Source: a virus. Taken from it: a stretch of 38,162 bases of DNA. Positions 29,509 to 36,235 of the stretch are shown in pieces. Each line of letters begins with the position of its first letter. Position 1 is the stretch's first letter. The notes under the pieces are model-generated. The model was not told the DNA's origin, ran no database searches, and was given only the letters and a program-made list of their open reading frames with translations. Where the stretch lies: the IMG/VR virus record IMGVR_UViG_3300046648_000140, positions 1 to 38,162 of that record; one strand, 5' to 3'. The position numbers and the translations under genes are program-made.

Positions 29509-29876
29509 CGCTTGTCCGGCTCAACCCCTAACGCAACCCGGCCGATTTTGTGGGCAATGTCGAAAACCTTCGCCAGCGCGTTGATTTCGGCCGGAGTTGT
29601 CGCGTTCTGAATCATCTGCGCCGCCTTCGCCCGAATCGCCCGAGCGACCGTCAGGTCGTCCTCGTTGAACCGGGCGAGTAAATTCGCCGCGTCGCCACTT
29701 TGACTAGTGACGGCGCGGACCTTTTCCGCTTCCTGCCGCCGTTCCTCGGCCCATCCTTCCTTGTCCGCCCGTGAGGCCAGCGTCGCCGGGTACAGGGCGT
29801 ATTTTTCGGCCAGCTCACTCAGACTTGCTGTCCCCTGGGCATACTCCATTCGGATTGAAGGCCAGTCAGTCGCCAT
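29505..29876 (-). CDS. HTH protein, small-terminase-like (123 aa)
   Basis: The N-terminal helix-turn-helix (about residues 5-45, YAQGTASLSELAEKYALYPA then LASRADKEGWAEER) is the type found in one class of phage small terminase subunits and related DNA-binding proteins. The C-terminal ATTPAEINALAKVFDIAHKI also fits that class. A different small terminase lies directly upstream of terL, so this one may be a regulator or a remnant of another packaging module. It overlaps the glycosyltransferase gene by 11 bases and belongs to that operon. It contains one copy of the dispersed 11-mer. Confidence 0.68.
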   Translation of the reverse strand: MATDWPSIRMEYAQGTASLSELAEKYALYPATLASRADKEGWAEERRQEAEKVRAVTSQSGDAANLLARFNEDDLTVARAIRAKAAQMIQNATTPAEINALAKVFDIAHKIGRVALGVEPDKR

Positions 29877-30753
29877 TACCCTTCACCTTTAGCGTCATTC
29901 CGTAGTTATTGGTTCCGGCCGGGATTATTGCCGAATCGCTGCGGATCAGCTTTTGAAGCTTGAAACCCGAGTAATCGACGTGGTGGTGTACCCGGCCGAA
30001 CCGCATAACGATTCGCGAAACGTCGGGGTGAACGGCGACCTGCATCGCGCTTTTCGCGGTCGTCCCTTCCTTAAAATAGAACTCGTCCGAGTTGCCACCT
30101 CCGATAGTTTGGGTGGTCAATTTCTCTTGCAGAAAGGCGTTGAATTGAACCGTACACCATCCCGCCTTGAGCATATCGAGGGATAAAATCGTGTCCTCGT
30201 TGTATCGACCGCGCCACCGAAACGGCGTGTCGTTTCGGATCAAGTTGCAGGAGTAAATCCGGGTATTGGTTACGAACGGTGGCATTTTGGTCTTGCGCGA
30301 CGCGAACATAAAATAATTCGGTCCGGCCATTGCCACGTTCTTATAGCGCTGGCAAAAGTCCTCCATCGCACGCCAGAAGGCCGGCGATTTCGTCGGCACC
30401 TTCAGGTTGTGATTGAGGCGGTAAAACGCCTTTATGTTGTCGTCCATGACCCAGTGCCATTTGTGACCCTCGCTTATCGAATGGTCCCAGATGAAATTGC
30501 GCGCCGGTCCCGGTCCGGTCGACTTGGATAGCCCGAGGCCGTCGCAGAGTTCGTACCGGGCTTTATACGACTGATCCAGCACGATCAGCTTCGACTTGTC
30601 GCCGCCGACTGCCGCCAGATACGCCTTGTATTCCTGTTCCTCGATAACCAGCCGATGCTTAACGCCCATCGCGTCGAGGGCTCGCGACGTAATCATGTAT
30701 TCCGCCCGGCCCTTGCTCGGGATATAGAGCGGGAACTGCGGGTGGTCATTCAT
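29866..30753 (-). CDS. TAGT/GREB1-like glycosyltransferase, possible DNA modification
   Basis: This 295-aa protein has the pattern of the TET-associated glycosyltransferase family proposed from comparative genomics for phage DNA base modification. Visible features are FPLYIPSKGRAEYMITSRAL (nucleotide-sugar side of a GT-A-like fold), HRLVIEEQEYKAYL, GPGPARNFIWDHSISEG, and WVMDDNIKAFYRL with Asp104-Asp105 as probable metal ligands. It would add a sugar to a modified base, but acceptor and donor are unknown. It follows a ParB-like gene with an 8-base overlap. No TET/JBP oxygenase is recognisable in the genome. The start at 30753 is preferred to 30768. Confidence 0.72.
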   Translation of the reverse strand: MNDHPQFPLYIPSKGRAEYMITSRALDAMGVKHRLVIEEQEYKAYLAAVGGDKSKLIVLDQSYKARYELCDGLGLSKSTGPGPARNFIWDHSISEGHKWHWVMDDNIKAFYRLNHNLKVPTKSPAFWRAMEDFCQRYKNVAMAGPNYFMFASRKTKMPPFVTNTRIYSCNLIRNDTPFRWRGRYNEDTILSLDMLKAGWCTVQFNAFLQEKLTTQTIGGGNSDEFYFKEGTTAKSAMQVAVHPDVSRIVMRFGRVHHHVDYSGFKLQKLIRSDSAIIPAGTNNYGMTLKVKGNGD

Positions 30754-31363
30754 ACGACTTATCCGCATAGGTTTCGATTTCGATAAACGGAAACCAAACC
30801 ATCCGAGTTTTGTCCGTGATCTTTTGTTCGATCAACGCGGCGAACTCGTCGACATGAGCCTGACAAGCGAAGTGAACGTGAATCGACCGAAAGGCCGTTT
30901 TGTCCTCCTGCTTGAACTCCGGCATTCCTTCCCATTCGGCTAGCGCGTCGGTTTCGCCGTGCGCAAATTCCAGGAACAGAGTGGACAAATCACCCTCGCT
31001 AAAGCCGACTAAATCGAGGTCGACGCCCAAATCTTGCAGGCCGGCAATCTCAAGCCGTAACAGCTCCTCGTCCCACCCGGCATTCAGCGCGAGCTTGTTG
31101 TCGGCCAAGATATACGCCCGGCGCTGGTTGTCGTTGAGGTGCCCCAGCTCGATTACCGGGACCGTCTCGAAACCCAACTTACGCGCTGCCAACAGGCGAC
31201 CATGCCCGGCAATAACCCCGTTCAAGCCGTCGACCAATATCGGGTTAGTCCAGCCGAATTCCTTGATGCTGGCGGCGATCTGCGCCACCTGCGCATCGTC
31301 GTGCGTTCTCGCGTTGTTCGCGTAGGGCACAAGGTCGGCGACTTTCCGTTGTTCAACCTGCAT
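30746..31363 (-). CDS. ParB/Srx-like nuclease-fold protein, partner of the glycosyltransferase
   Basis: This 205-aa protein has an N-terminal ParB/sulfiredoxin-like domain: RKVADLVPYANNARTHDDAQ (box I region), then NPILVDGLNGVIAGHGRLLA (box II with GHGR). The C-terminal half (about 120-205) carries QEDKTAFRSIHVHFACQAHV and DKTRMVWFPFIEIETYADKS. From memory this tail is typical of ParB-like proteins encoded next to TAGT genes. Some members of the fold are nucleases or ATP-using enzymes; the activity here is unknown. ATG 31363 is preferred to TTG 31381. A promoter and terminator lie upstream. Confidence 0.78.
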   Translation of the reverse strand: MQVEQRKVADLVPYANNARTHDDAQVAQIAASIKEFGWTNPILVDGLNGVIAGHGRLLAARKLGFETVPVIELGHLNDNQRRAYILADNKLALNAGWDEELLRLEIAGLQDLGVDLDLVGFSEGDLSTLFLEFAHGETDALAEWEGMPEFKQEDKTAFRSIHVHFACQAHVDEFAALIEQKITDKTRMVWFPFIEIETYADKSYE

Positions 31364-31390
31364 ATGGTTTATTCCGGTCAAAACGCGGGC

Positions 31391-34092: not shown

Positions 34093-34589
34093 GCTGCCCC
34101 CTTGAACGCGTCAATTTCCGCCATTTGCGTCAGCCGCTCCTCGGTCAAGGTCGGCCAGTCGTTCTCGATTACATACGCGCAGACGCCGACCCAGAACGCC
34201 TTAAACTCGTCCTCGCCCATATTCGGAAAGGACAGGCTCTGCGGCTTCTTGGTAATCAATACGCCGACCCCCGGAATCGGCGTTTCAGTCTTGTCGCAGC
34301 AGACGCCGGACTCAAATTGCAGCTCCTTGATTACGGCGTGAGATTGCTTGCCGGTGAAGCGGTCGAGGTTCTGCCCGAGGAGTTTCCCGAGGCCGTGAAC
34401 CAGTCGGTTGAACCGTGGATTACGCGGCAGGGTCAGGTAGGCAAATACCCGCGTATTGAGGCGAAACCCGCGTTCGCGCAACATCGAGCGGTCAGCCTCG
34501 GAAGCCGCAACAAATGCCGCCGTAGGCTTACCCGTTACCGGGTCGGTCAGTACGCGCAGGATCAGCTCAATCGGCAGCGGCTTACTCAT
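34089..34589 (-). CDS. DUF1367-like nin-region protein (166 aa)
   Basis: This 166-aa protein is compatible with DUF1367. It has LNTRVFAYLTLPRNPRFNRL, a basic helical stretch, then PQSLSFPNMGEDEFKAFWVG (about residues 115-134), the family's typical SLSF-M-E-EF motif. In lambdoid phages related genes lie just after the P replication gene, as here, and their role is not known. It is separated from the P-like gene by an overlap of 8 bases. Confidence 0.72.
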   Translation of the reverse strand: MSKPLPIELILRVLTDPVTGKPTAAFVAASEADRSMLRERGFRLNTRVFAYLTLPRNPRFNRLVHGLGKLLGQNLDRFTGKQSHAVIKELQFESGVCCDKTETPIPGVGVLITKKPQSLSFPNMGEDEFKAFWVGVCAYVIENDWPTLTEERLTQMAEIDAFKGAA

Positions 34590-35250
34590 CGTTTGGTTTC
34601 CCCTTGATAGTCCCGCGCAACTTGTCGAGCGCAGCCCGGCCGACCTCGGGCGTCCTGCGGCCTTCGACCTTCTCCGGCAGGCCGACCAAGATCGGGCGCA
34701 GCGGTTCGCCGGCTGCGATCATCCGGCAAACAATCTTGTATGCCCGGTTAAACAGCTCCCGGCTCGACTTGAGCGGCAGGGTGGATAGGTTGTAGAGCCC
34801 GACCTCCCGCGCAGCGTGAGACACGGCTACGTGCGACCAGACGACGTGCCCGGCGTTCGGGTAGGCGTTACGTGCCGCTTCCGCGTAGGCGTTATCCTCG
34901 GAAGGTAGGCCGAGGGTTTCCGGGGTTGGATGGCAGAGCGCGATAAACCGGCCAACGCTCGGGACGAAATCCGACGACAACCGGCGGCACGCTTGAACGC
35001 CGAACCGAATCTGCTCGATGCTCGTTATCCCCTCGGCCACAAACCCTTTCGTCATCGATTGCTTGTAGGCCTTGAGGTCGTTGTCGTCCGGCCACGCTTG
35101 GCGCCACGCCGGGAATATCGCCTTCAGTTCCTTGATAAGCGTATTGACGACGCGCCCGGCTGCCTCGTTGATGGCTTTCGGTTCGCTGTCCCCTGGGCAC
35201 GCAGCCGCTCGGGAAGTAATACGGGCGGCGATAGCCTTAACGTGATCCAT
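34582..35250 (-). CDS. Replication protein P-like helicase loader
   Basis: This 222-aa protein is of the phage replication protein P family. It has NTLIKELKAIFPAWRQAW and WPDDNDLKAYKQSMTKGFVA (about residues 50-70), then IEQIRFGVQACRRLSSDFVP and PSVGRFIALCHPTPETLGL. These blocks are typical of P, which brings host DnaB to the O-bound origin. ATG 35250 is preferred to 35277 because a G-run lies seven bases upstream and it overlaps the O-like stop as TGATG. It contains one copy of the dispersed 14-mer. Confidence 0.85.
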   Translation of the reverse strand: MDHVKAIAARITSRAAACPGDSEPKAINEAAGRVVNTLIKELKAIFPAWRQAWPDDNDLKAYKQSMTKGFVAEGITSIEQIRFGVQACRRLSSDFVPSVGRFIALCHPTPETLGLPSEDNAYAEAARNAYPNAGHVVWSHVAVSHAAREVGLYNLSTLPLKSSRELFNRAYKIVCRMIAAGEPLRPILVGLPEKVEGRRTPEVGRAALDKLRGTIKGKPNDE

Positions 35251-35975
35251 CACAACCCCCCGAGGTTTTGAGTCCATGACAGGTCATCGAAGTCCGGCCC
35301 GGTCTTGGCGTTCGGGACGATTCGGCGACCGGCATAGGTCTGCGCGTTGAGCATCCAGTTTTTCCACGACGCTACCCAGTCGGCGCGGGTTTCGCCTTTC
35401 GCTTTCCAGTAGTTCAAAAACTTCTCGGTTTCGAGAGTCAAGTCAGCGGCCGGCGCTCGGTCGTTCGCCCAGACGATCATTTCGGCCGTAATGTCGAACG
35501 GGTCGGGGACGGCGGTTTTACGTTTGGTTTTCGGCGAGGGAGCAGGGGACGGTTTCGCGTCGTTACGCTCTTTAATCTCTTCTCTTCTCTTCTCTTCTCT
35601 AGTCCGCTTTTTGTCCGCTTCGGATGCGGACACATTGCGGACGTTTCTTTTGCGGTCGGAGTCCATCGCCCGACGTTTGGCCGAGAGCCCGTTATGGTCC
35701 TCGAAGCGAGGCAGGCTGAGGCCTCCGGCGATTTCGTCCAACCACCCGGCGTCGATCATGGCGCGAGCGAAACCCGGAAACCCGATCAGGTCGTCCACGG
35801 TTTCGACCGTGTAACCTTCGAGGTTTCCGTCGACCGAATGCGTATCGAAAAGACACCAAACGGAATGTAGTCCGCCAACGGTCCGAAGTCTGTCCGCATG
35901 TAAAGCGGACGAAATACGGACAACTTTCGGACAGGTCGCGAGGTCGGTCCGCATCTTTATCCAATCGCCGGCCAT
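35250..35975 (-). CDS. Replication initiator O-like protein
   Basis: This is a 241-aa origin-binding protein candidate. The N-terminal winged-helix domain starts MAGDWIKMRTDLATCPKVVR, with GYTVETVDDLIGFPGFARAM. A highly charged linker (about residues 105-155, KKRTREEKRREEIKERN) follows. The C-terminal DnaT-like domain has FDITAEMIVWANDRAPAADL and ADWVASWKNWMLNAQ. It is directly upstream of the P-like gene. Two iteron arrays lie inside this gene, as the origin lies inside O in lambda. The linker is encoded by a TCTCT repeat tract. Confidence 0.82.
   Translation of the reverse strand: MAGDWIKMRTDLATCPKVVRISSALHADRLRTVGGLHSVWCLFDTHSVDGNLEGYTVETVDDLIGFPGFARAMIDAGWLDEIAGGLSLPRFEDHNGLSAKRRAMDSDRKRNVRNVSASEADKKRTREEKRREEIKERNDAKPSPAPSPKTKRKTAVPDPFDITAEMIVWANDRAPAADLTLETEKFLNYWKAKGETRADWVASWKNWMLNAQTYAGRRIVPNAKTGPDFDDLSWTQNLGGL
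35576..35600 (-). repeat. Five tandem TCTCT units (AGAGA on the coding strand)
   Basis: TCTCT is repeated five times at 35576-35600, directly beside iteron array 1. It encodes the Arg/Glu/Lys linker of the O-like protein. An oligopurine/oligopyrimidine tract next to iterons may ease strand opening, as AT-rich or purine-rich tracts do in other origins. It could also expand or contract, but only in steps that keep the frame. Confidence 0.75.
35602..35642. repeat. Iteron array 1 (candidate origin)
   Basis: GTCCGC begins at 35602 and 35613 (11-bp period) and GCGGAC at 35626 and 35637 (11-bp period). The two inner copies form the inverted repeat GTCCGC-N7-GCGGAC (35613-35631). The period is not a multiple of three, so it is not produced by protein repeats. 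It is probably a binding site for the O-like protein. Confidence 0.7.
35870..35932. repeat. Iteron array 2 (candidate origin)
   Basis: GTCCG begins at 35870, 35881 and 35892, and CGGAC begins at 35906, 35917 and 35928. All are exactly 11 bp apart within each set. The inner pair is GTCCGC-N7-GCGGAC (35892-35910), the same geometry as array 1. One more GTCCGC is at 35947. The symmetric three-plus-three layout suits cooperative binding on one face of the helix. Confidence 0.75.
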
Positions 35976-36235
35976 TACTGCCGAGCCTCAAGCGAGTACT
36001 GGCCGACGGTGACGGTTTTGCCGGCCTCGTTAACTACGCGGATATAGTCCGTATTGATTTCCATCCCGAGCCGGCGCAGGTCTTTGATACGAGCGGCAAG
36101 GCGGAAGCAACCGAAAAGGCGAAGGGCATCGAGCGGGGTTAGCCGTCCGCCTTCCTCAAGGTGTTTTTTGATAGCGCTGTTTTGCGACGTGGAGTTGATA
36201 GCGTTCGGGTTGTTGTCCATACTGACCTCGCTCAT
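35975..36235 (-). CDS. Small HTH protein in the cII position (86 aa)
   Basis: This winged-helix-like small protein has HLEEGGRLTPLDALRLFGCF and RLAARIKDLRRLGMEINTDY, then a beta tail. It matches the short phage HTH proteins that lie between Cro-like and O-like genes. It is probably DNA-binding; a CII-like activator role is suggested only by position. Two starts are possible: ATG 36235 (GGGGG upstream) and ATG 36220 (GAGG upstream). A candidate antisense RNA covers its 5' end. Confidence 0.72.
   Translation of the reverse strand: MSEVSMDNNPNAINSTSQNSAIKKHLEEGGRLTPLDALRLFGCFRLAARIKDLRRLGMEINTDYIRVVNEAGKTVTVGQYSLEARQ
36195..36223 (+). promoter_or_regulatory. Promoter of an OOP-like antisense RNA
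   Basis: TTGATA (36195-36200), a 17-base spacer and CATACT (36218-36223) lie on the plus strand, facing away from the HTH gene they overlap. The predicted start is near 36230. The only downstream element before the cro-like gene is a terminator. Confidence 0.5.

Follow-up and report, generated by a model that had tools for sequence, protein, structure and literature searches.

Two convergent half-site arrays inside a phage initiator gene mark a candidate lambda-like replication origin that appears to be exchanged with its DNA-binding domain

Bacteriophage lambda has its iterons within the coding sequence of its initiator, next to a tract that is strand-asymmetric, a design that is already known. 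Passages of PMC5043065 describe the lambda opening region as strand-asymmetric, with nearly all of the purines in one strand, and palindromic sites of the lambda type are described there, and in part of PMC7466680, as being bound by a dimer. It is also already known that lambdoid origins differ in specificity and are recognised by the N-terminus of O, as stated in a portion of PMC2629481. Two other groups of origins are relevant here: plasmid iteron origins, which have helix-phased repeats beside an opening element (outlined within PMC5043065), and PICI origins, which have two iteron sets per origin (set out in part of PMC6092414).

The DNA analysed here (the window, meaning the whole stretch of 38,162 bp) is that of a temperate phage with integrase, CI-like repressor, portal, terminase and head genes. 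Its O-like replication initiator gene (35250..35975, minus strand) encodes a protein of 241 aa that matches PHROG 2509, a replication initiation protein, with an E value of 8e-62 over residues 1-154. The protein consists of an N-terminal winged helix (residues ~7-96), a basic linker and a DnaT-like C-terminal domain (~150-214). In an AlphaFold2 model (mean pLDDT 76), the winged-helix domain is confident and the C-terminal domain is helical, while pLDDT in the linker (residues 118-150) is below 50. A profile search (E 4.7e-5) and a fold comparison (4ou6; Z 6.0, rmsd 3.5, 64 residues) both relate the C-terminal domain to DnaT; the model indicates a DnaT-like fold that is predicted to bind ssDNA. 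For the N-terminal domain, the staphylococcal Rep chains 4pql and 5kbj (Z 5.1-5.2) were tied with CRP-like regulators. We detected no Pfam family in the protein at E values up to 1, and no homology to lambda O (BLASTP E 0.62; hhalign probability 0.3%). Directly downstream, and overlapping the end of the O-like gene by 28 bp, is a lambda P-like helicase-loader gene (34582..35277, minus strand; PF06992, E 2.7e-30; phrog_109, E 4.7e-49), and a winged-helix gene (35975..36235, minus strand; PF14090, E 3.1e-13) lies upstream. Other members of the family have a DnaC-like gene in place of P, or neither.

The original prediction, made from the letters of the window, was that the O-like gene contains two arrays of GTCCG/CGGAC half-sites, one of 2+2 and one of 3+3, and we recovered every one of their positions. 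Array B (35602..35642, minus strand; 2+2) has GTCCG at 35602 and 35613 and CGGAC at 35627 and 35638 on the plus strand; in gene coordinates it covers nt 334-374, with half-sites at nt 334 and 345 followed by inverted ones at 359 and 370. Array A (35870..35932, minus strand; 3+3) has GTCCG at 35870, 35881 and 35892 and CGGAC at 35906, 35917 and 35928 on the plus strand; it covers gene nt 44-106, within the part that encodes the DNA-binding domain, with GTCCG at nt 44, 55 and 66 and CGGAC at nt 80, 91 and 102. The predicted 11-bp phase proved exact at every same-strand step of both arrays, as did the identity of their centres: the 19-bp core GTCCGC-N7-GCGGAC is present once per array, at 35613-35631 in B and at 35892-35910 in A, and the only two sites for GTCCG-N9-CGGAC in the whole record are these two centres. 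The gap between the arrays, put at about 230 bp in the prediction, is 227 bp. A scan of the whole window found no chain of phased half-sites with more than four members outside the O-like gene. GC skew, which had been proposed as a check, was computed along the window and was uninformative, with no convincing switch at the arrays.

The lambda iterons lie in the middle of their initiator gene (O nt 349-433), as does array B (nt 334-374). As in lambda and the Stx phages, the sites are palindromic and a P gene is found downstream, and, as in lambda, a strand-asymmetric purine tract follows the iterons in the coding direction. In contrast, lambda has four separate 18-bp palindromes, whereas each array here has a single 19-bp core from which half-sites are stacked outward at 11-12 bp. 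Further differences from lambda are the second cluster near the gene start, the DnaT-like C-terminus and an O without detectable sequence relation; moreover, although the strand asymmetry of the window's tract equals that of lambda's, the former is GA-rich and the latter A+T-rich. The original prediction gave the lambda iterons a length of 19 bp; the lambda record annotates 18 bp. Of the features of a lambda-type origin, the window has repeats within the initiator gene and an asymmetric tract, and lacks the series of ~18-bp palindromes; the P-type loader next door is as in the lambda O/P module. Plasmid iteron origins are similar in that their repeats are in helical phase and adjoin an opening element, but here the repeats are inside the initiator gene, converge on a palindrome and have a predicted reader from a different protein family. 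In PICI origins, the two iteron sets lie on either side of an A+T-rich region 3' of rep, whereas both arrays here are within the gene and the tract is beside B only; the window arrays do not have the PICI-type arrangement. The initiator of Salmonella phage epsilon15 (NP_848250) belongs to the same family, with 75% identity over residues 1-121, and its gene has the same arrays in the same places. DNA homology between epsilon15 and the window covers gene nt 1-405 only, and the C-terminal part past the purine tract is unrelated to that of the window. No origin is annotated in the epsilon15 record, and we found no earlier description of these arrays in the open-licence PMC literature. Relative to that literature, four features are new for this initiator family: half-sites that converge on a core, an additional cluster, the set of three words, and the place where the cassette ends. 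The best reading of the window is that it would have a lambda-like origin in an initiator gene that is unrelated to lambda O and is fused to a DnaT-like C-terminus.

The array B DNA pattern, searched for in IMG/VR in exact form and with no protein information, was found at no fewer than 119 viral loci. Among the pattern loci listed, the match lies within a homologue of the window's O-like gene in 117 of 119 (tblastn); the other two are O-like by eye, and one of these is a truncated fragment. Relatives have one of three core words, GTCCGC, GTAACG or GTCACG, and are referred to as the GTCCG, GTAAC and GTCAC classes. Because the pattern-fetched loci (L082-L200) were chosen by array, they were excluded from all counts of cores, codon identity, tracts, pair distances and homology boundaries. 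At gene extraction, 11 loci dropped out, 6 of them short and 5 lacking a start, no gene was found in 30, and the number of distinct protein-fetched genes is 208 or 210 depending on the order in which duplicates were removed. The same exact core, scored as a 5-mer inverted pair at a distance of 14, is present in both arrays in 125 of 210 protein-fetched genes, and a distance-14 pair was found in both zones in 2 of 4200 genes after codon shuffling. At a distance of 12, which corresponds to the same palindrome one base further in, the pair is found in both zones in 194 of 210 genes. Among genes from bacterial genomes, 44 of 66 have a core in both zones at distance 14 and 45 of 66 at distance 12, against 3 of 1320 shuffled genes; two short genes were dropped from the shuffle and distance-scan counts for this set. 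The distance of 14 was picked after the arrays had been seen; hence, we scanned all distances from 6 to 30, and observed peaks at 10, 12, 14 and 16 and at 23, 25 and 27 only, with odd distances represented by 0 or 1 genes, the flanking sites at 21, 23, 25 and 27 excepted. The same-strand lag is 11 in the GTCCG class, 12 in GTAAC and 11 or 12 in GTCAC, and, of the 128 genes with a core of any kind in both arrays, A and B share the word in 123.

The original prediction had called for a search for the same geometry in related O genes, and had named absence of the arrays from close relatives as evidence that would count against it. We found the geometry to recur at the same places where the O N-terminus is shared; the arrays are present in close relatives. 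A clear array A is absent from two GTCCG subclades, one comprising L116, L125, L169 and L207 and the other L098. Array B in these subclades has 4 to 6 phased half-sites, and the additional half-sites perhaps compensate for the missing array A. Among distant relatives, two contigs from Planctomycetota MAGs (L444 and L450) have GTAAC cores in the A zone as well as the B zone; the layout may reach beyond Pseudomonadota, provided that the binning is correct. In L006 (gene nt 140-200 and 440-490), and also in L454, both zones contain CGTGACGTAACG repeats with a geometry unlike that of the main family; L006 was labelled GTCAC by script, and its repeats are of another geometry by eye.

Array B of the window ends at gene nt 374, and a 25-nt purine-only run begins at nt 376. 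This run (35576..35600, minus strand), one base past array B and with AGAGA repeats on the coding strand, is a candidate strand-opening element; it is the TCTCT-repeat tract that the original prediction had noticed beside the smaller array, the plus strand being pyrimidine-only from 35576 to 35600. In 56 of 67 GTCCG genes, the distance between the tract and the last half-site is 1 nt; it is 1 or 2 nt in 88 of 131 GTAAC genes, and 1 nt in 5 of the 11 genes of the small GTCAC group; 36 of the 131 GTAAC genes have no purine run of 11 or more. Longer runs, of at least 14, are found in the B region in 188 of 238 genes, in nt 1-300 in 1, and past nt 520 in 0. Arginine is encoded by AGR codons at 78 of 78 positions inside tracts, as compared to 98 of 621 outside. 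The peptide encoded by the tract varies by class (REEKRRE or EEEEEE, by eye), and the DNA remains purine. Five loci (L203, L204, L208, L209 and L211) have runs of four to seven C just past the tract, some of them followed by G runs; the window has no such C runs.

We consider it very likely, on comparative sequence grounds, that the arrays are iterons of the O-like protein encoded by the gene in which they lie, and that array B and the purine tract together form the phage replication origin; we infer that O binding and the start of replication occur at the arrays. An O dimer would bind the 19-bp core palindrome through its N-terminal winged-helix domains, and further O protomers, all on one face of the DNA, would occupy the half-sites at a distance of one helical turn (11-12 bp). 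The complex on array B would then melt the strand-asymmetric purine tract one base away, and the DnaT-like C-terminal domain, together with the P-like loader, would place the host DnaB helicase on the strand that has been opened. Array A would be a second cognate cluster ~280 bp away, near the gene start. Since there is no tract at array A, and since it is missing in two subclades, its role is probably regulatory rather than that of an opening site; most likely, it would limit initiation or O-P transcription, by repression or by pairing of the clusters.

The comparative tests thus favour, as the best reading, the iterons and lambda-like origin in the O gene that the original prediction had proposed, but they lend no special support to its suggestion of looping. 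If A and B formed one looped complex that was required for initiation, the identical core word in the two arrays would be readily understood. Yet the spacing between the cores is variable (264-342 bp in GTCCG, 207-238 in GTCAC and 189-231 in GTAAC), phasing at 10.5 bp does not exceed chance in the GTCCG class (0.20) and is weak in the other two classes (0.036 and 0.092), and two subclades have array B alone. We therefore regard a requirement for looping as unlikely.

Initiators often autorepress, and array A, at 44-106 nt inside the gene, is at a good site for a roadblock. Hence, the arrays might be operators only, through which O or another protein represses the O-P operon, with the origin elsewhere. 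This would leave unexplained both the purine tract 1-2 nt from array B and the parallel with lambda ori, and regulators encoded nearby are excluded as the other protein. The window's upstream winged-helix, YdaS, CI and P genes all have homologues in each of the six relatives L004-L009, which are labelled GTCAC, though the arrays of these relatives differ; we rejected these neighbours as array readers for this reason. Complete flanks were available for 64 loci, of which 60 are GTCCG; the winged-helix gene is present in only 7 of the 64 and P in 9; the winged-helix gene occurs with other arrays and is absent beside most GTCCG arrays, and was also rejected as a reader. We conclude that a purely operator function is improbable.

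As RNA, both arrays fold well (z -6.8 for B and -3.5 for A), as would be expected if the inverted arrays were stems of hairpins in the O mRNA that act in attenuation or translation control. Stems need neither a word repeated at 11-12 bp within an arm nor its presence in both arrays, and the word changes in both arrays together. Furthermore, the 5-nt spacers of the arms pair at 113 of 330 positions, as compared to 127 expected from shuffled partners (66 distinct arrays). We consider RNA hairpins highly improbable as the explanation.

The arrays lie within coding sequence, and array A overlaps conserved residues. We compared each gene with versions in which synonymous codons had been permuted within the gene, leaving the protein and codon counts unchanged. 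The window gene has 10 phased half-sites, whereas the maximum in 200 shuffles is 4. All 200 shuffles are exceeded by 31 of 40 representatives chosen at 85% binding-domain identity, a set that is biased because 19 of the 40 were fetched by DNA pattern, and by 13 of the 21 representatives that were fetched by protein similarity or as phage records. For 66 further genes from bacterial genomes, 38 exceed all 100 shuffles and 28 do not. Three genes (L274, L380 and L381) have a phased half-site score of 0 in the shuffle test; L380 nevertheless has a core in both zones. We also measured synonymous-codon identity, comparing pairs of genes at positions where both encode the same amino acid. For the GTCCG class, with 23 representatives of 76, identity is 0.805 over codons 19-36 as compared to 0.533 over codons 37-104; in the GTAAC class (43 representatives of 143), it is 0.901 at codons 50-56, with 0.515 and 0.539 on either side. 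Each class is at background (0.484 and 0.493) where the other class peaks. Since the peaks fall at different codons in each class, array A occupies two gene positions and the conservation follows the array, a pattern indicating that selection acts on the array DNA beyond the protein. That a conserved protein and codon bias generate the arrays as a by-product of coding can effectively be dismissed, given that synonymous shuffles fail to yield the arrays of the window and seldom yield cores in both zones of relatives, that codon identity peaks exactly over array A and shifts with class, and that an 11-bp phase is out of frame; this agrees with the claim in the original prediction that protein repetition is not their cause.

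Comparison of the window with its relatives indicates that the half-site word follows the N-terminal DNA-binding domain. L004-L009 have 70-85% identity to the window in the C-terminal domain and 30-49% in the binding domain, and their arrays are different. When DNA of L006 is aligned to the window, identity is 93% up to gene nt 20 and 87% from nt 375, and nothing is alignable between; the exchanged interval (35602..35955 of the window, minus strand) includes both arrays and the DNA-binding domain, and the right end of the exchange is the first base after array B. Conversely, epsilon15 and L030 have the same arrays and are homologous to the window in the first 405-407 nt of the gene only. In 1695 of 2193 pairs among 124 representatives, DNA matches confined to the N-terminal part stop no more than 30 nt from the tract, and in 41 of 56 pairs those confined to the C-terminal part start within that distance of it, the pairs in both counts being non-independent. 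A tree of the binding domain, which has long branches and few columns, requires 5 label changes for the four labels, where the minimum possible is 3; thus, words have changed rarely, and largely along the lineage of the domain. The original prediction mentions the purine tract, but neither its fixed distance and place in the origin, nor the other words in this geometry, nor the swapping of binding domain and arrays as a cassette.

Our broader proposal is that a large initiator family has a two-cluster origin entirely within the initiator gene, made of helically phased half-sites that converge on one palindrome, in which the word, read by the N-terminal domain, would set type specificity, the domain and arrays would be swapped as a cassette of ~375-400 bp ending at the tract, and array A would be a position-shifting brake or partner; taken as a whole, we hold this with belief and doubt in equal measure. 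If it is true, a single recombination at the cassette would change the replication specificity of a phage, giving a simple model in which phages switch specificity by swapping one cassette. For several hundred phages and prophages, the origin would be predicted to within ~70 bp; epsilon15 and Rac-like prophages are among them, as are loci from genomes of Pseudomonas and Burkholderiales. The three half-site words and their matching binding domains would provide a natural set for studying how an initiator reads DNA, and the arrays would illustrate how strong selection can act on a second message within a coding sequence.

In a column-wise comparison of binding domains, each of the three GTCCG groups has R101 without variation, and the other groups lack it. 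We derive no recognition code from the domain columns, since class is confounded with ancestry and the coding of residue 51 overlaps array A. The ydaU gene of E. coli K-12 (L390:7120-7977) encodes a protein, YdaU, whose C-terminal part is common with that of the Rac YdaU of strain 442/2 (L204:1228-2016); the N-terminus of the K-12 protein is different and, by eye, so are its linker repeats (GTTCAAAC/GTTTGAAC). This is apparently another swap of a binding domain together with its repeats. Elsewhere in the window, there are two overlapping genes (29866-30768 and 30746-31381), a match to phrog_842 (beta-glucosyl-HMC-alpha-glucosyltransferase) and a ParB-like gene, and a methyltransferase gene is located at 1824-2945; the phrog_842 match and the methyltransferase hint that the phage DNA is modified.
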